Shown here one piece after another: positions 26,455-40,636 of a stretch of 64,000 nucleotides of DNA. How positions within the stretch are numbered: position 1 is the first letter of the stretch; every line of letters begins with the position of its first letter. Source of the stretch: Bordetella genomosp. 5 (GTDB lineage Bacteria; Pseudomonadota; Gammaproteobacteria; Burkholderiales; Burkholderiaceae_B); contig NZ_NEVN01000006.1 in NCBI RefSeq assembly GCF_002261475.1, positions 1 to 64,000 of the forward strand, read 5' to 3'. The notes beneath the pieces are model-generated. The model had not been told where the DNA came from. It was given only the letters and a program-made list of their open reading frames with translations, and ran no database searches. A program made the position numbers and the translations under genes.

Positions 26455-26520
26455 CCCGACGGGGTTGAAACGCGCGTTTCGCGGGGCGGTTTCCCGCCGG
26501 GCGTGTCGGGTTTTTGTTTT
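26455..26520 (+). terminator. Structured leader / terminator-like element before terC
   Basis: After the anti-sigma stop, CCCGAC (26455-26460) can close with GTCGGG (26505-26510), followed by a T-rich tract TTTTTGTTTT (26511-26520). Inside lie a perfect palindrome GAAACGCGCGTTTC (26467-26480) and the stem GGCGG/CCGCC (about 26485-26498). The terC Shine-Dalgarno begins about 15 bases after the T-tract. It could simply terminate the sigma operon or be an attenuator for terC. I could not match it to the yybP-ykoY manganese riboswitch. Confidence 0.45.
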
Positions 26521-26546
26521 TGTTCTCTGTTCACAGGAGTTTTCAC

Positions 26547-27275
26547 GTGCTTGAGTTTTTGCAAACGCTCAGTTGGGCGGCTGTTTTCCAGATCATCCTG
26601 ATCGATATCCTGCTGGGCGGCGACAACGCGGTGGTGATCGCGCTGGCCTGCCGCAACCTCGAACCCAAGCAACGCATGAAGGGGATCCTGTGGGGCACCG
26701 CCGGCGCCATCGGCCTGCGCGTGCTGCTGATCGGCTTCGCTCTCACGCTGCTGACCATTCCGTTCCTCAAGGTCGTGGGCGCGCTGCTGCTGCTGTGGGT
26801 CGGTGTGAAGCTGCTGATTCCCGAGGGTGATGCGCATAGCAACATCAAGGGCGGCACCTCGGTGCTGGCCGCGGTCAAGACCATCATCGTGGCCGACTTC
26901 GTGATGAGCCTGGACAACGTGATCGCCATTGCCGGCGCCGCGCAGGGCGCCGACGAAGCCCACCAGCTCGGCCTGGTGATCTTCGGTCTGGTCGTGAGCG
27001 TGCCCATCATCATCTGGGGCAGCACCATCGTGCTGAAGCTGATCGATCGCTTCCCGATGGTCGTGACGATCGGCGCCGGTCTGCTGGGCTGGATTGCCGG
27101 CGGCATGCTGGTCACCGACGTGGTCATCACCAACCGCTTCGGCGAAATCCCGACCATGGCCAAGCTGGCCGCCGAAGTGGCCGGTGTCATCATCGTGATC
27201 GGCCTGGGCAAGTGGTTTGCCTCGCGCAAGCTGGCGCGTCAGGCGCAGGCCGTGCCGGCCCGCGAAGGCGTCTGA
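26547..27275 (+). CDS. TerC family membrane protein (YjbE type)
   Basis: A 242-residue integral membrane protein with about seven spans, TerC family. The two acidic motifs that form the presumed metal site are present: DILLGGDNAVVIALA (about residues 19-33) and ADFVMSLDNVIAIAGAA (about 116-132). TerC relatives are linked to metal (manganese, tellurite) export and membrane-metal homeostasis. The start is the GTG at 26547 with CAGGAG 7 bases upstream; the frame extends 11 codons further without a better start. It is monocistronic, with a structured leader before it and a strong terminator after it. A second, larger TerC protein is encoded at 36.4 kb. Confidence 0.9.
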   Translation: MLEFLQTLSWAAVFQIILIDILLGGDNAVVIALACRNLEPKQRMKGILWGTAGAIGLRVLLIGFALTLLTIPFLKVVGALLLLWVGVKLLIPEGDAHSNIKGGTSVLAAVKTIIVADFVMSLDNVIAIAGAAQGADEAHQLGLVIFGLVVSVPIIIWGSTIVLKLIDRFPMVVTIGAGLLGWIAGGMLVTDVVITNRFGEIPTMAKLAAEVAGVIIVIGLGKWFASRKLARQAQAVPAREGV

Positions 27276-30618: not shown

Positions 30619-32865
30619 ATGTCAGCGAACCCCACCGAAGGCGCCGCCGCGCCGGCCCCGCGCCTGGACCGCCTGCGCGATTTCGTCTCCGACCTCTCGG
30701 ATCTGCTTGCCGGGGGCGCGGACCGCGACGCCGCCCTGACGCAGGGCGCCGCGCTGCTGCGCGACCTGGTGCGCCACGACGACTGGTTGCCCGACGCCTA
30801 CGCCCAACCGCAGCCCGATCGCTACGCGCAATATCTGCTGTATGCCGATCCGGGCGGGCGCTTTTCGGTGGTGAGCTTCGTCTGGGGCCCGGGGCAGGCC
30901 ACGCCGGTCCACGATCACACGGTCTGGGGCCTGATCGGCATGCTGCGCGGCGCCGAGCGCTCGCAACGCTATGCGCGCGACGCGCAAGGCAACTGGATCG
31001 CGGACGGCGCGCCCGTGGTGCTCGTGCCCGGTCAGGTCGAGGCCGTCTGGCCGCCCGGGCACGACGTGCACCGCGTGAGCAATGTGCACAACGACCAGGT
31101 CTCGATCAGCATCCATGTGTACGGCGCCGATATCGGCAGCATCCGGCGCTCGGTCTATACCGAGTCCGGCGAGATCAAGCCGTTCATCTCGGGCTACAGC
31201 GATGCCCCGCTGCCCAATCTCTGGGGCGCGGCGCAGCCGGGGGCGTTCCCGCAGCGCGCCACCCAGGCGGTGCGGGCCGATCTGATCGCGGGCCGCGAGG
31301 TCGCGCTGCTCGACGTGCGCGAAGAGGCGCCGTTCGCGGTGTCGCATCCGCTGTTCGCGGCCAACCTGCCGTACTCGCAGATCGAGCTGCAGGCCTGGCG
31401 CCGCATTCCGCGTCGGGACACGCCCGTGGTGGTCTACGACAACGGCGAGGGCCTGGCCCGCCGCGCCGCCCGGCGTCTGCGCGAGCTGGGCTACACCGAA
31501 GTCAGTCTGCTGGCGGGCGGCCTGGCCGGCTGGGCGGCGGACGGCGGCGAGCTGTTCTGCGACGTCAACGTGCCGAGCAAGTCGTTCGGCGAACTGGTCG
31601 AGGCGCACCGGCACACGCCTTCGTTGCCCGCGCCGGAGGTCCACGCGCTGCTCGAGCGCGGCGCCGACGTGGTGGTGGTCGACGCGCGCCGCTACGACGA
31701 ATATCACACGATGAACATTCCGGGCAGCACCAGCGTGCCGGGCGCCGAGCTCGTGCTGCGCGTGCGCGAGCTCGCGCCGGATCCGGCCACCACGGTGATC
31801 GTGAATTGCGCGGGCCGCACCCGCAGCATCATCGGCACCCAGTCGCTGGTGAATGCCGGTCTGCCCAATCCGGTGTTCGCGCTGCGCAACGGCACGATCG
31901 GCTGGACGCTGGCCGGGCTCACGCTCGAGCACGGCCAATCGCGCCGTCATCCCGCCGAGGTCGATGCGGGCCACCGCAACACGGCGCGCCTGCGCGCGCG
32001 CGAGGTGGCCGACCGCGCCGGCGTGAAGCGCGTGACCTGGGCGGAGCTCGACACCCTGCGCGACCCGGCCCGCGGCCTTTATTTACTCGACGTGCGCCAG
32101 CCCGAGCTGTACGAAGCCGGCCATCTGCCCGGCTTCGCGAACGCGCCGGGCGGTCAGCTCGTGCAGGAAACCGATCACGTGGTGCCCGTCCGCGGCGCCC
32201 GCATCGTGCTGACGGACGGCATCGACGAAGACGCGGGCGTGCGCGCCGACATGACGGCATCGTGGCTCGCGCAGATGGGTTGGGATGTCTATGTGCTCGA
32301 CGCGGCCGACGCGCAGCGCGCGGGCGTGACGCTCGCGGTGGGCGCGCCGGCGCAGACGCTGCCGCCCGAGCCCGAGGGCGCCACGCGGGCGCGCATCGCG
32401 CCGGATCAATTGCGCGACTGGCTGATGCAGCCGGGCACCGTCCTGCTCGATCTCGCGCCCAGCCTGACGTATCGCAAGGGGCATATCGCCCAGGCCGAGT
32501 TCGCGCTGCGTTCGGGCTTCGACGCGCTCGCGCCGGGGCTGGCGCAAGCCACGCGCGTCGTGCTGACCTCCGGCGACGGCCGGTTGGCGGCCTATGCCTG
32601 GGCCGATCTCACGGCCGCGCTGGCGCGCCATGCCATCGATGTGCCGGTGGCGATCCTCGAGGGCGGCACCGATGCGTGGACCGCCCAGGGGGGCGCGCTG
32701 GTCAGCGAACCGCAGGTCTGGCGCTCGCCGGCCGACGATCGCTATCGCCGGCCGTACGAAGGCACCGACAACCCGGTCGAAGCCATGCAAGGCTATCTCG
32801 ATTGGGAATACGGGCTGGTCGACCAGCTCGCGCGCGACGCCACGCACGGGTTCCGGGTGGTGTAA
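30619..32865 (+). CDS. Fused thiol dioxygenase and tetra-rhodanese protein
   Basis: A 748-residue fusion. Residues about 1-200 are a cupin thiol dioxygenase: iron ligands His98 and His100 (PVHDHTVWG) and His151 (DVHRVSN), and the catalytic triad Ser164-His166-Tyr168 (SISIHVYG). The position of cysteine dioxygenase Arg60 is a glutamine (Gln71 in YAQYLL), the pattern of the Gln-type (3-mercaptopropionate dioxygenase-like) enzymes. Four rhodanese-like domains follow (about 213-315, 335-440, 470-570, 590-695). Only the second has the catalytic cysteine (Cys397, VNCAGRTRS); the others show VYDNGEG, LTDGIDED and LTSGDGR at that place. It likely oxidises a thiol to a sulfinate and handles the released sulfur in one chain. 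Cytoplasmic; monocistronic. Confidence 0.92.
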   Translation: MSANPTEGAAAPAPRLDRLRDFVSDLSDLLAGGADRDAALTQGAALLRDLVRHDDWLPDAYAQPQPDRYAQYLLYADPGGRFSVVSFVWGPGQATPVHDHTVWGLIGMLRGAERSQRYARDAQGNWIADGAPVVLVPGQVEAVWPPGHDVHRVSNVHNDQVSISIHVYGADIGSIRRSVYTESGEIKPFISGYSDAPLPNLWGAAQPGAFPQRATQAVRADLIAGREVALLDVREEAPFAVSHPLFAANLPYSQIELQAWRRIPRRDTPVVVYDNGEGLARRAARRLRELGYTEVSLLAGGLAGWAADGGELFCDVNVPSKSFGELVEAHRHTPSLPAPEVHALLERGADVVVVDARRYDEYHTMNIPGSTSVPGAELVLRVRELAPDPATTVIVNCAGRTRSIIGTQSLVNAGLPNPVFALRNGTIGWTLAGLTLEHGQSRRHPAEVDAGHRNTARLRAREVADRAGVKRVTWAELDTLRDPARGLYLLDVRQPELYEAGHLPGFANAPGGQLVQETDHVVPVRGARIVLTDGIDEDAGVRADMTASWLAQMGWDVYVLDAADAQRAGVTLAVGAPAQTLPPEPEGATRARIAPDQLRDWLMQPGTVLLDLAPSLTYRKGHIAQAEFALRSGFDALAPGLAQATRVVLTSGDGRLAAYAWADLTAALARHAIDVPVAILEGGTDAWTAQGGALVSEPQVWRSPADDRYRRPYEGTDNPVEAMQGYLDWEYGLVDQLARDATHGFRVV

Positions 32866-32902
32866 ATAAAAGGCGGCCCCGGCCACGAGGGCAGGGGCCG
32901 CC
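32864..32902 (-). terminator. Terminator of the hsp20-lon operon
   Basis: Read on the minus strand, GGCGGCCCC (32902-32894) pairs perfectly with GGGGCCGCC (32880-32872), followed by TTTTATTTA (32871-32863). It overlaps the stop codon of the convergent dioxygenase-rhodanese gene and probably serves both directions, although only the minus side has a T-tract. Confidence 0.75.
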
Positions 32903-32930
32903 ATGCTGGCGGGCCGCGGCGCCGCGCGCT

Positions 32931-35333
32931 TCAGTGCGGCTTGGGCGCCTGGGCCTCGGCGGGCTCGGGCTGACGCGCCGCCGCCGCCGCGCCGTCCGGT
33001 GCCGTGCCCGGCGCCGGCGCGCACTCGCCATCGATGGCGCAGCGCAAGGCGTCCTCGACCCGATCCAGCAACACGAAGCGCAGCTTGGCGCGGGCTTCGG
33101 CGGGCACGTCGTCCAGATCCTTGGCGTTGCGCCGCGGCAGCATCACGGTCGTGATGCCGGCCCGCAGTGCGGCCAGGGTCTTTTCCTTGACGCCGCCGAT
33201 CGGCAGGACGAGGCCGCGCAGACTGACCTCGCCCGTCATGGCCACGTTGGCGCTCACGGGCCGATCCGACAGCAGCGAAGCGAGCGCGACGAACATCGCC
33301 ACCCCGGCGCTCGGACCGTCCTTGGGCGTGGCGCCCGCCGGCACGTGGATGTGGACGTCGATCTTGTCCATCGCGTCGCCGCTCCAGGTCTTGGCCAGCG
33401 TGAGCGCGGCCTGGGCGGATTCCTTCATCACGTCGCCCAACTGGCCCGTCAGAATCAATCGGCCATTGCCGGGCGTCTTGCTCGCTTCGATGAAGAGGAT
33501 GTCGCCACCCACCGGCGTCCAGGCCAGTCCCGTCGCCACGCCGGGCACGGCGGTGCGCAGCGCGACTTCATTTTCGAAGCGCTGCGGGCCCAGAATGGCG
33601 GGCAGGTCCGGCGCGTCGATGGTGACCTCGGTGGCCTTGCCTTCGGCGATCTCCACGGCAGCGTGGCGCAACACGGCGCCCAGCTCGCGTTCGAGATTGC
33701 GCACGCCGGCCTCGCGGGTGTAATCGCCCACGATGCCGGCCAGGGCCGCCTCGGTCACCGTGGCCTGCTCGGGCTTCAGGCCGTTGGCCTCGCGCTGCCG
33801 CGCCACCAGATAGCGGCGTGCGATCTGGATCTTCTCTTCTTCGGTATAGCCCGGCAGCTGGATGATCTCCATGCGGTCGCGCAGCGGCCCCGGAATGGTG
33901 TCGAGCGCATTGGCCGTGCAGATGAACATCACCTGCGAGAGGTCGTAGTCCACGCCGAGGTAGTTGTCGCGGAACTTGTGGTTCTGCTCGGGATCGAGCA
34001 CCTCCAGCAACGCGCTGCCCGGGTCGCCATGAAAGCCGCCCGCGCCGAGCTTGTCGATTTCGTCGAGCATCAGCACGACATTGCGCGTGCCGGCGCGCCG
34101 CATCGCCTGGATGATGTTGCCGGGCAGGGCGCCGAGATAGGTGCGACGATGGCCGCGGATCTCGGCTTCGTCGTGCACGCCGCCCAGCGCCACGCGCTGG
34201 AACTCGCGTCCGGTTGCGCGCGCAATCGATTGACCCAGCGAGGTCTTGCCCACGCCCGGCGGGCCCGCGAAGCACAGGATCGGGCTGCGGCCCGAGGGAT
34301 TGAGCTTGCGCACCGCCAGATACTCCACGATGCGCCGCTTGATCTTGTCGAGGCCGAAGTGGTCTTTATCGAGCACGGCACGCGCCTGCGCCAGATCGAT
34401 GGGCTCCTGCGGCGCGGGCTTCCAGGGCACCTCGGTCAGCCACTCGAGATAAGTGCGCAGCATCGCGTACTCGCCGCTCGTGTCGCCCATGCGCTGCAGG
34501 CGCGCGAGCTCCTTGCGCGTGTGCTTGAGCACGTCTTCGGGCATGCCGGCCTTGTCGATGGCCTCCTGGAGCTGCTCGAGCTCCGCGCTGTTGTCGCCCG
34601 CGTCGCCCAGCTCCTTCTGGATCTGGCGCAGCTGTTCGCGCAGCACCGTCTCGCGCTGACGTTCGTCGAACTGCGCGCGCGTGCGCTCGCCGATCTCTTT
34701 GGACAGCCGCAGCACCTCGAGGCGGGCGCCGAGCTGCGTGATCACCTTGTCGAGGCGGCGCGCGAGATCGAAGGTCTCGAGGATGTCTTGCTTGATGTCC
34801 GACTTGATGTCGATCAGATTGGTGACCATGTCGGCCAGCAGGGCGGGCGATTCGATGCCCTGCACCACGGCCGCGAGCTCGTCGGGCACATTGGGCAGCA
34901 GGGCGATCGCATCGGCCGCCTGGCGCTTGAGCTGCAGGAAGCGCGCCTCGATCTCGCTGTCGCTGTCGGCGGCCGCCTCGATGAGCGCCACGCGCGCCAC
35001 CATGAAGGGCCAGCCTTCGAGGAACTCGAGCACGCGAAAGCGCGCCTGCCCTTGCACGAGCAGATGATGCGCGCCGTCCTGGCCCGTGATGTAGCGGGCG
35101 ATCGGCCCCTCGGTGCCGACCCAATAGAGGTCGTCGGGCGTCACCACGTCTTTCTGAGGATCGCGTTGCAGCAGGAAGCCGACCGGGCGCTCGGCCTTTA
35201 CGGCTTCCTGGGCCGCGGCCACGGAGATGCCGCGGCTCACGGTAACGGGCGACAGCACGCCGGGAAACAACACGGCGTCGCGCAACGGAATGATGATGCG
35301 GGCATCGTCGGGCAGGGTACGCAGGTCCGTCAT
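32931..35333 (-). CDS. lon: ATP-dependent Lon protease
   Basis: An 800-residue LonA protease. N-terminal substrate domain (about 10-200), coiled region, AAA+ domain with Walker A GPPGVGKTS (near 357) and Walker B VVLMLDEIDK, sensor region, then the protease domain with Ser-Lys dyad: Ser in PKDGPSAGV (near 680) and Lys in GGVKEKTLAAL. A Pro/Ala tail of about 30 residues ends the protein. It degrades misfolded and regulatory proteins in the cytosol. Its start overlaps the hsp20 stop (ATGA at 35333-35330), and both should run from the heat-shock promoter upstream. It may be a second Lon in addition to the clpX-linked one usual in this group, which lies outside the window. Confidence 0.95.
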   Translation of the reverse strand: MTDLRTLPDDARIIIPLRDAVLFPGVLSPVTVSRGISVAAAQEAVKAERPVGFLLQRDPQKDVVTPDDLYWVGTEGPIARYITGQDGAHHLLVQGQARFRVLEFLEGWPFMVARVALIEAAADSDSEIEARFLQLKRQAADAIALLPNVPDELAAVVQGIESPALLADMVTNLIDIKSDIKQDILETFDLARRLDKVITQLGARLEVLRLSKEIGERTRAQFDERQRETVLREQLRQIQKELGDAGDNSAELEQLQEAIDKAGMPEDVLKHTRKELARLQRMGDTSGEYAMLRTYLEWLTEVPWKPAPQEPIDLAQARAVLDKDHFGLDKIKRRIVEYLAVRKLNPSGRSPILCFAGPPGVGKTSLGQSIARATGREFQRVALGGVHDEAEIRGHRRTYLGALPGNIIQAMRRAGTRNVVLMLDEIDKLGAGGFHGDPGSALLEVLDPEQNHKFRDNYLGVDYDLSQVMFICTANALDTIPGPLRDRMEIIQLPGYTEEEKIQIARRYLVARQREANGLKPEQATVTEAALAGIVGDYTREAGVRNLERELGAVLRHAAVEIAEGKATEVTIDAPDLPAILGPQRFENEVALRTAVPGVATGLAWTPVGGDILFIEASKTPGNGRLILTGQLGDVMKESAQAALTLAKTWSGDAMDKIDVHIHVPAGATPKDGPSAGVAMFVALASLLSDRPVSANVAMTGEVSLRGLVLPIGGVKEKTLAALRAGITTVMLPRRNAKDLDDVPAEARAKLRFVLLDRVEDALRCAIDGECAPAPGTAPDGAAAAARQPEPAEAQAPKPH

Positions 35334-35734
35334 GGGGCCTCCCTCAGTTTGTTCAGGGTAAGGATCAGGCAGCCGTCCCGCAGTTGCGGGGTGACTGGCT
35401 CGAGCGCATGCAGCGAGAGCCGGATACGGCGCGCGAAGCGGCCATACGGAATCTCCAGACGATGGATGCGGGAGCGGTAGGCGGCCGGAAAGGGCCGCAG
35501 GCCGGAAATGGTGATGCCGTCCGGGTCGAACCGAACGACGATGTTGTCGCTCGACACACCCGGCACGGCCAGGATGACCGTGATGTCGGTGTCGGTTTCG
35601 ATGATGTCCACTGCGGGTTCCCAGCAGTGCGCATCATCGGTGCAGCGAAGCAGTTGACGCTGCATTCGCTCCGCATGCTGAAGCAGCGCCAGCGCGTCGC
35701 CCCAGACCCAGGTAGAAAAATCGCGCGATCTCAT
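35330..35734 (-). CDS. Small heat-shock protein (Hsp20/alpha-crystallin family)
   Basis: A 134-residue small heat-shock protein. The alpha-crystallin domain runs from about 40 to 128: WEPAVDIIETDTDITVILAVPGV, then the strand pair DNIVVRFDPDGITISGLR and the FARRIRLSLHALEP strand. The C-terminal IxI/V tail motif is only weakly present (LILTLNK). It should bind unfolding proteins without ATP and pass them to ATP-dependent systems. It is translationally coupled to lon (4-base overlap), so holding and degradation are co-expressed. The ATG at 35734 has GAGGGCGAG upstream; a consensus sigma-32 promoter begins 28 bases before it. Confidence 0.9.
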   Translation of the reverse strand: MRSRDFSTWVWGDALALLQHAERMQRQLLRCTDDAHCWEPAVDIIETDTDITVILAVPGVSSDNIVVRFDPDGITISGLRPFPAAYRSRIHRLEIPYGRFARRIRLSLHALEPVTPQLRDGCLILTLNKLREAP

Positions 35735-36431: not shown

Positions 36432-38015
36432 ATGATATTTGACTGGATGGCCGACCCCACTGCGTGGTTGGGCCTGGCGACACTGATCGTGCTGGAGATC
36501 GTGCTCGGCATCGATAACCTGGTGTTTATCGCGATCCTGGCGGACAAACTGCCGCCGCATCAGCGCAACCAGGCTCGCCTGGTCGGTCTGTCGCTCGCGC
36601 TCATCATGCGCCTGGGCCTGCTGGCCAGTATCGCGTGGGTGGTGACGCTCACCGCGCCGCTCTTCACGGTGTTCGGCGCGGAGATCTCCGGCCGTGACCT
36701 GATCCTGATCCTGGGCGGTATGTTCCTGCTGTTCAAGGGCACCATGGAGCTGCACGAGCGCGTCGAAGGGCGCGCGCATGGCGGCGGTGGCAAGCGCGCG
36801 CAGCACGCCGTGTTCTGGCAGGTGATCCTGCAGATCGTGGTGCTGGACGCCGTGTTCTCGCTCGACTCGGTGATCACCGCCGTGGGTATGGTGCAGGAAC
36901 TGAGCATCATGATGACGGCCGTGATCGTGGCCATGATCGTGATGATGCTGGCCAGCCGTCCGTTGATGTCCTTCGTGGGCCGTCACCCGACCGTGGTCAT
37001 CCTGTGTCTGGGCCTGCTGCTGATGATCGGTTTCAGCCTGGTGGCCGAAGGCCTGGGCTTCGACATCCCCAAGGGTTATCTGTACGCGGCCATCGGTTTC
37101 TCGATCCTGATCGAGCTGTTCAACCAGCTGGCCCGCCGCAACACCACGCGTGATGTGCACGGCCTGGGCCGTCGCGAACGTACGGCGCGCGCCGTGCTGC
37201 GCCTCCTGCGTGCCGATCGCCACGACGGCGATGCGCATGGCGCGCCCGAACCCGCGCATGCCGGCGATCCGGACTCGGAAGAGCCCGCCTTCGCGCCGGA
37301 AGAGAGCTCCATGATCGAGCGCGTGCTGTCCATGGGTAGCCGCGACATGCGCGCCATCATGGTGCCGCGTGGCGAGATGGTCTGGCTCGACGTCAAGGAC
37401 AGCGCCGACGTGGTGCTGGAGAAGTTCGCGCGCGGTCACTCGCGTCTGCCCCTGTGCAACGGCGACCCTTCCAACGTGATCGGCGTGCTGCACTTCAAGG
37501 ATGTGATGGAGCCGCTGCGCGCGCCGGGCCCGGTCGATCTGATCGAGTTGGCGCACGAGCCGCACTACGTTGCGGAAACGATGCCGGTGCTCAAGCTGGT
37601 CGAAGCCATGCGCGAGTCGCGCGAACACCTGCTGATCGTGGTCGACGAGCACGGCGTGTGCGAAGGCCTCGTGACGCCGATGGATCTGCTGACCGCCGTG
37701 GCCGGCGATCTGCCCGACCACGCCGACGATGCCACGCCGGGCGCTGCCCGCATGGCCGATGGCGCGTGGGTGTTCGACGGCCGCCTGGAGACCACCGAGG
37801 TCGCCCGCATGCTCGATGCCTACGAGCTGGCCAGCGACTATCCCGACGACGCGACGCTGGCAGGCTGCCTGCTGCGCGCCTCGGGCACCTTGCCCGCGGT
37901 CGGCACGGTGGTGTCGTGGCGCGACTGGCGCTTCGAGGTCATGCGCGTCGAAGGCCGCCGCATCGCCCAGGTTCGTGCGGTGCACATGGTGCCGCAGGAG
38001 GCCGACGAGGCCTGA
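36432..38015 (+). CDS. TerC - CBS - CorC/HlyC domain membrane protein (YegH/YoaE-like)
   Basis: A 527-residue protein. TerC transmembrane domain (about 1-235) with the two acidic motifs [17 protein letters not shown] and [17 protein letters not shown], then a charged linker (about 245-290) and a CBS pair (about 300-425, [16 protein letters not shown] ... [22 protein letters not shown]). A CorC/HlyC C-terminal domain follows (about 435-520). This is the YegH/YoaE architecture, linked by family to metal ion efflux, with CBS modules sensing nucleotides or ions. The ATG at 36432 has GAGG upstream (TGAGGACCTCAG). It is followed by a strong terminator and convergent to the PF06684 gene. Confidence 0.92.
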
Positions 38016-38693: not shown

Positions 38694-39659
38694 TTATTGC
38701 GGCGGGATGCCGGTTTCCTTGACGATGGCGGCCCACTTGTCGATCTCGCTCGAGACATACGCGCCGAACTGGGCGGGGCCCTGTCGCAGCGGCGACAGAC
38801 CCTGGCGCGCGTAGGTTTCCTGGAGCTCGGGGCGGGCGAGCGCCTGCGTGAGCGAGCGCGACAGCCGCTGCGTGAGGTCGGCCGGCAGATTGGCCGGCCC
38901 CATCAGCCCGAACCACACGGTGAGGTCGAAGCCGGGCGCGCCGGTCTCGTTCAGGGTGGGAACGTCGGGCGTCAGCGCGAAACGTTGCGGCGTGCTCACG
39001 CCATACACCTTCACCTTGCCGGCGCGCGCCTGCTGCAGGCCGTTGGCGAGATCGGTGAAGGTCATGTCCACGGTACCGCCGATCACGTCGGTGAGGGCCT
39101 GCGGGCCGCCGCGGTAGGGCACCGGCGTGACGTTGATGCCGCCCATGGTGGCCAGCTTCGCGCCGAACACCTGCGCGCTGCCCGAGCCATAGGCATAGGT
39201 GAGCTTGCCGGGATTCTTCTTGCCGTAGGCGAACAGGTCGGCGACCGTCGTGCCGGGCATGTCGTGCGAGCCCACCAGCAGATAGGGCGTCTCGGCGATC
39301 GCGCCGATGGCGGTGAGGTCGCGCGCCGGGTGGTAGGGCAGATCCTTGAAGAGGCTCACGCCGCTGGCGGCGGTGGACACCCCCACGATCACGAGCGTGT
39401 AGCCGTCCGGCTTGGCCCGCGCCACGTCGTGCGTGCCGATGATGCCGTTGGCGCCGGGCTTGTTTTCCACCACGATGGGCTGGCCCAGGTCGTCGGCCAT
39501 GTCCTTGGCCAGCGTGCGCGCCACCACATCGGTGATGCTGCCGGGCGGGAAGGGCACGACCAGGCGGATCGGGCGGTCGGGATAGGCGGCGAGCGCGCTG
39601 CCGGCGGCAAACGCGCAGACGGCGCCGGCCAGCGCGAGGCGGCGAAGAAGGGGCTGCAT
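38694..39659 (-). CDS. Tripartite tricarboxylate transporter receptor (Bug family)
   Basis: A 321-residue periplasmic binding protein of the Bug/TctC family, greatly expanded in Burkholderiales. A Sec signal peptide of about 24 residues (ends ALA) is followed by AYPDRPIRLVVPFPPGSITDVVAR, the classic Bug opening, where the loop binds a carboxylate. Further markers are ENKPGANGIIGTHDVARAKPDG and PYRGGPQALTDVIGG. No TctA/TctB membrane genes are nearby, as is common for Bug genes, so it may serve a distant permease or a sensing role. Start at 39659. It lies between the hydroxyacid dehydrogenase and PF06684 genes. Confidence 0.95.
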   Translation of the reverse strand: MQPLLRRLALAGAVCAFAAGSALAAYPDRPIRLVVPFPPGSITDVVARTLAKDMADDLGQPIVVENKPGANGIIGTHDVARAKPDGYTLVIVGVSTAASGVSLFKDLPYHPARDLTAIGAIAETPYLLVGSHDMPGTTVADLFAYGKKNPGKLTYAYGSGSAQVFGAKLATMGGINVTPVPYRGGPQALTDVIGGTVDMTFTDLANGLQQARAGKVKVYGVSTPQRFALTPDVPTLNETGAPGFDLTVWFGLMGPANLPADLTQRLSRSLTQALARPELQETYARQGLSPLRQGPAQFGAYVSSEIDKWAAIVKETGIPPQ

Positions 39660-39727
39660 GGATTGTCTCCTGTTGTCGGTGTCGGCGGCGCCGTCGTGCG
39701 GTGCCGTCCGTCTTGCGTGGGCGTGCG

Positions 39728-40636
39728 TCAGGCCGGGGCGTTCTCGCTGGCCCGTTCGCGCAGATAGCGATAGATCTCGGTGTTGTCGGCGGTGGCGGGC
39801 AGTTGCTCGCGCGCCTCGCGCCACAGGCGCGTGCAGAGCGCCAACTGCTCGGTCTGGACGCCGGCCAGCGCCTGCAGGCTGTCGGCCGTGCCGAGGTCTT
39901 TGGCCATCAGGCCGAGCGCGAAGCCGCCGTTGAACGTGCCGGGCACGATGAACTGGCGCAGCTTGGTTTCGGTGGCCACGTTGCGCCCGCTGGAGGCGTT
40001 CAGCACTTCGGTGAAGATGCCGAGGTCCAGGTCCATGCGCTCGGCGATGAGCAGGGCTTCCGACGCGGCGAGCAGCCCTGCCGCGTACACGTAATTGTTG
40101 AGCGCCTTCATGGCGTGGGCCGACGACACCGCGCCGGTATGGATGATGGTGGTGCCCATGTGTGCGAGCACCGGCCGCACGCGCTCGAGATCGGGCGCCG
40201 CGGCGCCCACCATGATCGCGAGCGTGCCGGTGGCGGCCTTGGCGACCGCGCCGGAGACGGGCGCGTCGATCAGGCCGATGCCGCGTTCGGCCAGCTGCGC
40301 GGCGAGCTGCCGGGTGTCGGCCGGATTGGAGGAGCCCATGTCGACGACGGTGGCGCCGCGCGCAAGGCGTTCGGCCAGGCCGCCCGGCCCCGCGATCACC
40401 GCGTTGGTGATCGTGCTGTTGGGCAGCATCGTGATGATGAGCTCGCGGTCGGCCAGCGCGGCCAGATCGGATGCCCGGTGTAGCGAACGCTGCCAGGCCG
40501 GATGGCGCGCCAGGCGTTCGAACGGCGCCTCGGCACGATCGTGCGCGAGGATGTCCAGGCCCTCGGCGCGGGCCAGATTTTCGAGCATGGGCAGGCCCAT
40601 CATGCCCAGGCCCACGAATCCCAGTTTCAGCGTCAT
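39728..40636 (-). CDS. NAD(P)-dependent beta-hydroxyacid dehydrogenase (3-hydroxyisobutyrate dehydrogenase family)
   Basis: A 302-residue dehydrogenase. N-terminal Rossmann domain with GFVGLGMMGLPM (residues 6-17), the DxxxxPVSG substrate motif as IDAPVSGAVAKAATG (about 124-138), catalytic lysine in MKALNNYVYAAG (about 174-185), and an all-helical C-terminal domain with KDLGTADSLQ. It oxidises a beta-hydroxy acid such as 3-hydroxyisobutyrate, tartronate semialdehyde (in reverse) or a relative; the substrate is open. First gene of the minus-strand unit with the Bug and PF06684 genes, divergent from a LysR regulator with a LysR box in the shared 150-bp promoter region. Confidence 0.92.
   Translation of the reverse strand: MTLKLGFVGLGMMGLPMLENLARAEGLDILAHDRAEAPFERLARHPAWQRSLHRASDLAALADRELIITMLPNSTITNAVIAGPGGLAERLARGATVVDMGSSNPADTRQLAAQLAERGIGLIDAPVSGAVAKAATGTLAIMVGAAAPDLERVRPVLAHMGTTIIHTGAVSSAHAMKALNNYVYAAGLLAASEALLIAERMDLDLGIFTEVLNASSGRNVATETKLRQFIVPGTFNGGFALGLMAKDLGTADSLQALAGVQTEQLALCTRLWREAREQLPATADNTEIYRYLRERASENAPA

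Follow-up and report, generated by a model that had tools for sequence, protein, structure and literature searches.

A single gene of the window, the 64,000-nucleotide stretch of DNA analysed here, encodes a thiol dioxygenase of the CDO_I cupin type and four rhodanese domains in one 748-residue chain. We tentatively read its product as a mercaptocarboxylate dioxygenase with an in-chain sulfurtransferase, in which Cys397 would pass sulfane sulfur on, most likely to sulfite. This architecture is widespread and represents a variant of a gene pair already known, in which the two halves are encoded by adjacent genes, and not a new kind. The preliminary description of this DNA had identified a cupin dioxygenase joined to four rhodanese domains with a cysteine only in the second of them (Cys397), and this is confirmed in both sequence and fold. 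Of its overall reading, the single chain, the Gln-type thiol dioxygenase and the one competent-looking rhodanese site stand; the notions of a singular machine and of three equal domains without cysteine had to be given up.

The fusion is not a product of chance or of a frameshift, since the same fusion occurs in separate assemblies. The rhodanese part agrees with the tetra-rhodanese structure 1yt8, with four domains in register over the full length, and the alignment shows the CAGRTR loop of domain 2 in 1yt8 as well. The gene is flanked by an EAL response regulator gene on one side and by lon on the other, both on the opposite strand. A 1224-aa open frame (31806-35480, +) spans the fused gene and lon; it is dropped by the codon-position gene call and reads as spurious. 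The features of the gene are listed in the table.

Features of the fused gene. The bounds of all four rhodanese domains are our reading of the predicted structure, and the loop residue is the residue that follows the loop-bearing strand, with strands taken from the model.
Feature	Position	Strand	Remarks
Fused gene	30619..32865	+	748 aa plus stop
Gln-type thiol dioxygenase (cupin) domain	30661..31233	+	about residues 15-205; 6xb9 E 3.2e-73, 3uss/4tlf E 6.1e-69
Gln71	30829..30831	+	Gln63 of Av3MDO, rat Arg60 position; Gln in 198/202 rows
His98-Asp99-His100, both His iron ligands	30910..30918	+	each His in 201/202 rows, 1 gap
His151, third iron ligand	31069..31071	+	202/202 rows
SHY motif Ser164, His166, Tyr168	31108..31122	+	Ser 192, His 202, Tyr 202 of 202 rows
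Arg177, substrate-carboxylate binder	31147..31149	+	Arg168 of Av3MDO; 200/202 rows, 2 gaps
Linker, dioxygenase to rhodanese module	31225..31239	+	residues 203-207, pLDDT <50
Rhodanese domain 1	31261..31554	+	loop residue Asp274
Rhodanese domain 2, sole domain with loop Cys	31555..31953	+	loop residue Cys397
Active loop Cys397-Ala-Gly-Arg-Thr-Arg402	31807..31824	+	CAGRTR identical in 133/133 rows; Cys397 in 203/203 rows
Rhodanese domain 3	31954..32343	+	loop residue Asp533
Rhodanese domain 4, least conserved	32344..32736	+	loop residue Ser651
Ser651, domain 4 loop	32569..32571	+	3MDO-linked rows: Cys 84/92, Ser 8/92
C-terminal tail, Y726-L-x-W-E730 motif	32737..32862	+	retained where domain 4 is lost

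The dioxygenase half displays the features of a 3-mercaptopropionate dioxygenase (3MDO), namely an iron site of three histidines with the Ser-His-Tyr motif, a glutamine at the position of rat Arg60 and a carboxylate-binding arginine moved to position 168. In the alignment with the Azotobacter vinelandii enzyme (Av3MDO), Gln63, His90, His92, His142, Ser155, His157, Tyr159 and Arg168 correspond to Gln71, His98, His100, His151, Ser164, His166, Tyr168 and Arg177, respectively. The 202 rows used for the residue counts consist of the query, 81 fetched loci (including two paralogues from the same genome) and 120 database proteins, one of which is a 99% copy of the present protein. Sections of PMC8050391 describe Gln63 of Av3MDO as the residue that distinguishes the Gln type and Arg168 as the one to which the substrate carboxylate binds. 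The placement of Gln71 at the Arg60 position, on which the earlier functional reading depended, is thus borne out by the alignment, and the arginine of an Arg-type cysteine dioxygenase is replaced there. Arg177 was overlooked in the earlier work; it strengthens the Gln-type, 3-mercaptopropionate-like reading because it is the counterpart of Arg168. The mercaptosuccinate dioxygenase (MSDO) 8vni is matched at E 1.1e-10 versus E 3.2e-73 for 6xb9, and 10 of the 11 MSDO-like rows have an Arg in place of Gln71. From these residues, the first half is predicted to oxidise 3-mercaptopropionate or a close mercaptocarboxylate.

We propose that the cupin half would convert 3-mercaptopropionate or a close mercaptocarboxylate into the sulfinate. 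This step is deduced from the complete active site and from the finding that a P. protegens 3mdo mutant accumulates 3-MPA. Sulfite would arise downstream of the sulfinate, Cys397 of the rhodanese half would carry sulfane sulfur, and the reaction of this sulfur with sulfite would give thiosulfate. The loop with the invariant cysteine is doubly basic, which suggests an anionic sulfur donor or acceptor, and sulfite is chosen as the acceptor because it is the product common to the partners. SsuD releases sulfite, and the SsuD-like monooxygenases encoded near many split pairs are expected to act alike. The product of mercaptosuccinate dioxygenase falls apart to sulfite, according to passages of PMC5373536, and in Variovorax a CoA-dependent desulfinase takes 3-sulfinopropionate to sulfite, as stated in part of PMC6370202. 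We infer the exact thiol, the catalytic role of Cys397, the sulfane donor and the role of sulfite as acceptor. In P. protegens, deletion of tst caused no significant change of extracellular 3-MPA (1716 versus 1457 at 4 h and 1968 versus 1750 pg/OD at 8 h), which gives no evidence that the rhodanese takes part in the first step in that organism. This null result fits a downstream role of the rhodanese and speaks against an essential upstream role, without demonstrating any activity. The literature searched yielded no assay of the rhodanese half, and no paper naming 1YT8, a structure released in 2005, was found in the open-licence literature searched.

Neighbouring genes were counted at loci flanked by 4 kb or more on either side, in clusters from our own gene calls and with no random-region baseline; cluster names come from one representative each, and most lie below curated cut-offs. 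Counted in this way, SsuD-like, acyl-CoA-dehydrogenase-like (DszC/SfnB type) or SsuA-like genes are located near 33 of the 44 split 3MDO-type loci (10 of 17 at one per genus label), near 1 of 14 fused loci and near 1 of 8 MSDO-type loci. The SsuD-like cluster is nearest to alkanesulfonate monooxygenase structures (E 1e-61) and lies below the NCBIfam cut-off. The acyl-CoA-dehydrogenase-like cluster has its nearest models, both far below their cut-offs, in the 3-sulfinopropanoyl-CoA desulfinase (102 bits, cut-off 600) and SfnB (90 bits, cut-off 431), and one of the two SsuA-like clusters is above its family cut-off. A search of the same genome and of 19 relatives for 3-sulfinopropionyl-CoA desulfinase (NF042439) gave no match above the curated cut-off, which all 14 controls likewise failed to reach. 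The regions of six stand-alone 3MDO loci (L167-L172) contain CoA-transferase family III genes in three cases and no desulfinase among the 11 genes scanned.

That most fused loci are without sulfonate-type neighbours speaks against the proposed reading. Such genes are also absent from the seven scanned neighbours of the fused gene, which comprise lon, the genes for EAL and LuxR-type response regulators, two TerC genes, an AA_synth gene and a TctC receptor gene. The two TerC-family membrane protein genes are found within about 12 kb (26514-27275, +, and 36432-38015, +, the second with CBS and CorC domains). The TctC-type receptor gene (38694-39824, -) follows the fused gene at a distance of 5.8 kb. 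According to part of PMC5373536, TctC genes adjoin the catabolic 3MDO of Advenella.

The tetra-rhodanese module accompanies two kinds of mercaptocarboxylate-type dioxygenase, because the dioxygenases encoded with it on contigs C12 and C7 of the same genome are nearest to MSDO 8vni. The first of these is a second fusion (C12:187797-189995; L148, 6696-9011, +), which shares 41% identity with the present protein; its dioxygenase part is nearest to 8vni (E 1.3e-32) and its rhodanese part to 1yt8 (E 7.5e-111). Genes for AhpC, a DsbA-like and a ferritin-like protein adjoin it. The second is a split pair (C7:386636-389200; L147, 6592-9333, -) whose dioxygenase matches 8vni with E 2.5e-75. This pair is situated between tuf/nusG and the parAB region, and a divergent LysR gene is present. 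Two further dioxygenase-like matches are found in the genome, on C10 and C12. Judged by genome content, the pairing of module and dioxygenase is not obligate, which also weighs against the proposed reading: 8 of the 21 genomes with the module have no dioxygenase match, including all six genomes of one genus; three have only distant matches (31-38% identity) and ten have matches of at least 50% identity.

The rhodanese half might instead act upstream of the oxidation, stripping sulfane sulfur from R-SSH or from the products of a C-S lyase and thereby giving the dioxygenase free thiol. Cystathionine beta-lyase-type enzymes can form persulfides from disulfides, and a gene of this type is present in four of the eight MSDO-type loci with flanks of at least 4 kb. 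According to passages of PMC5373536, MSDO genes in Variovorax B4 and Advenella share their cluster with genes for a rhodanese and a cystathionine beta-lyase, so that the same pair occurs in the Advenella Msdo cluster. For the Advenella deletion, which had a wild-type phenotype, the strain table of that source gives MIM_c37450-37480 and a figure legend gives 37430-37480; the rhodanese gene is 37440 (PMC5373536, in part). However, no such lyase gene occurs among the seven scanned neighbours of the fused gene or in any of the 3MDO-type loci with such flanks, 44 of them split and 14 fused, and 3-MPA was not significantly changed in the P. protegens tst deletion. An upstream role is therefore regarded as unlikely.

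The database search yielded at least 7604 of 7998 scored candidates that pass E 1e-3. A search for the same architecture had been recommended earlier and has now been carried out: all 120 matches listed are 682-772 aa long and align with the dioxygenase half as well as with the rhodanese half, one of them being the 99% copy of this protein. Among the 80 best named loci, out of 418 loci found, 28 are fused, 51 are split into adjacent genes and one is cut by a contig edge. The fusion is thus not unique, and in place of the singular machine first supposed there is a large family, in which the halves are frequently separate genes. A possible ATG or GTG start lies -12 to +30 nt from the dioxygenase stop in 48 of 62 split pairs, and a 4-nt overlap is allowed in 23 of the 62. 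Locus L159 (6040-10498, -) has a pair of neighbouring 733-aa ORFs, one of which encodes an MSDO-type fusion.

The distribution of fused and split forms was followed on two trees of a quick kind, whose change counts do not tell gains from losses. The first contains 130 rows, without L057, L159 and L166 (module cut to less than 380 aa) and without L005-L007 and L139-L146 (duplicate or weak single-rhodanese matches). On it the fused label of the 3MDO-type rows needs seven changes, at least six of them forced by strongly supported branches, although an assembly error could account for isolated fused rows such as L025 or L021. This protein clusters there with three other fused proteins (support 97). 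The second tree, of 76 rows thinned from 91 3MDO-linked rows, shows six fused/split changes, all of them forced. A single fused clade is rejected by the AU test (p 0.0005), and with it a single origin of the fusion.

A simple joining of adjacent genes, which brings no advantage from coupling except equal dosage, would agree with the many split pairs that are already closely spaced or overlapping. It is nevertheless improbable in view of the six or more fused/split changes and of the second fusion with another dioxygenase type. Because of these repeated changes, and because the same module is found beside two kinds of mercaptocarboxylate-type dioxygenase, the results suggest that the two halves act on one pathway.

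The conservation of the rhodanese module is uneven. Domains 1, 2, 3 and 4 have 12, 39, 16 and 1 columns that are at least 97% identical and the 42-residue tail has 6, and the mean column identity is 0.675, 0.780, 0.619 and 0.500 for the domains and 0.739 for the tail, calculated for the 127 rows with all four domains and leaving out six rows without domain 4. Within the 92 3MDO-linked rows, the corresponding numbers of columns are 24, 65, 34 and 8, with 24 in the tail. The three domains without cysteine had been treated alike in the preliminary description. They are not equals, since domain 4 has a single such column against 12 and 16 in domains 1 and 3, is missing in one lineage and possesses a loop cysteine in most of the 3MDO-linked rows. 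Six fetched proteins of one genus (g124; L157, L158 and kin) have 410 aa and three rhodanese domains, with domain 4 absent and the tail kept. No thiol dioxygenase match was detected in the six genomes of this genus, and L158 lies beside TonB-receptor, PepSY and tannase-like genes.

The cysteine in the loop of domain 4 occurs in 1 of 17 MSDO-type rows and in 1 of the 18 rows with domain 4 for which no partner was seen. It is a variable and not a defining trait of proteins of the 1YT8 kind, and Ser651 takes its place here. On the tree of 76 3MDO-linked rows, the Cys/Ser difference requires two changes, and the placement of the eight Ser rows in one group is not rejected (AU p 0.416). A loss of the cysteine in the present lineage is not favoured. 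Its gain in the main 3MDO-linked clade is simpler and probably took place, because the MSDO-type rows are also without it, two changes suffice and a single Ser group is not rejected. Together with the tail, domains 1 and 3 probably form a fixed frame that surrounds domain 2. Domain 4 is probably a dispensable addition, which acquired a loop cysteine of its own in most 3MDO-linked relatives.

The absence of the cysteine from three of the four domains, together with the lack of a significant 3-MPA change after tst deletion, would be expected if the rhodanese module were not a working sulfurtransferase but served the dioxygenase as a scaffold, sensor or regulator. This is very unlikely, as CAGRTR including its cysteine is identical in all 133 rows, which are the distinct rhodanese modules of a set broader than the 202-row one, while domain 4 drifted; the module also persists in genomes without a detected dioxygenase.

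We also see little likelihood in a cycle analogous to PRF and CstB, in which thiosulfate would supply sulfane sulfur that the rhodanese half transfers to a mercaptocarboxylate, whose terminal sulfur would then be oxidised to sulfite by the cupin. The order of dioxygenase followed by rhodanese is that of PRF and CstB, according to sections of PMC6060420, and the entry title of 5ezw describes thiosulfate bound in crystals of rat CDO Y157H. However, the cupin carries the residues of a known thiol dioxygenase, and P. aeruginosa has a separate persulfide dioxygenase, as stated in part of PMC12856154. The boldest extension, to which we give the least credence, would make the protein a second and unrelated way of building a persulfide dioxygenase-rhodanese machine, with the mercaptocarboxylate as a sulfur carrier loaded by domain 2, the cupin burning the loaded sulfur to sulfite, repeated wiring with 3-mercaptopropionate- and mercaptosuccinate-type enzymes, and a second relay cysteine added later in domain 4 by most of the 3MDO line.

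On the preferred reading, the protein would connect the oxidation of thiols with the handling of sulfane sulfur in Burkholderiales and Pseudomonas. 3-Mercaptopropionate has recently been reported as an antifungal and anti-oomycete product there (PMC12947264). One chain with two active sites and a single cysteine to exchange would allow the two halves to be tested directly. No title or abstract describing a 3MDO/CDO-tetra-rhodanese fusion was found in the open-licence literature searched. New relative to the literature searched are the recurrent fusion and splitting, the one module common to two dioxygenase kinds and the conservation pattern, with one universal cysteine and a drifting, droppable domain 4 whose cysteine is probably derived in most 3MDO-linked relatives.

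The closest known system is found in P. aeruginosa, where the adjacent genes PA2602 and PA2603 encode a 3-mercaptopropionate dioxygenase (3uss/4tlf) and a tetra-rhodanese (1yt8), respectively. There, as in the 3mdo-tst pair of P. protegens, two genes are present in place of the single chain described here. The loop of domain 4 contains a cysteine in 1yt8 and Ser651 in this protein. The A. vinelandii 3MDO (6xb9) has the same residues at the compared active-site positions, including Gln63 and Arg168, but is a stand-alone dioxygenase chain. The mercaptosuccinate dioxygenase (8vni), which has a rhodanese neighbour in Variovorax B4 and Advenella, is a thiol dioxygenase likewise paired with a rhodanese gene; the paralogues in the same genome are of this type, whereas the present dioxygenase is far nearer to 3MDO. 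PRF and CstB have fewer rhodanese domains than the four-domain module. Both combine an iron dioxygenase with a C-terminal rhodanese in one chain (PMC6060420), as is the case here, but their dioxygenase has a metallo-beta-lactamase fold, iron bound by two His and one Asp and a persulfide substrate, whereas the present protein uses a CDO_I cupin.
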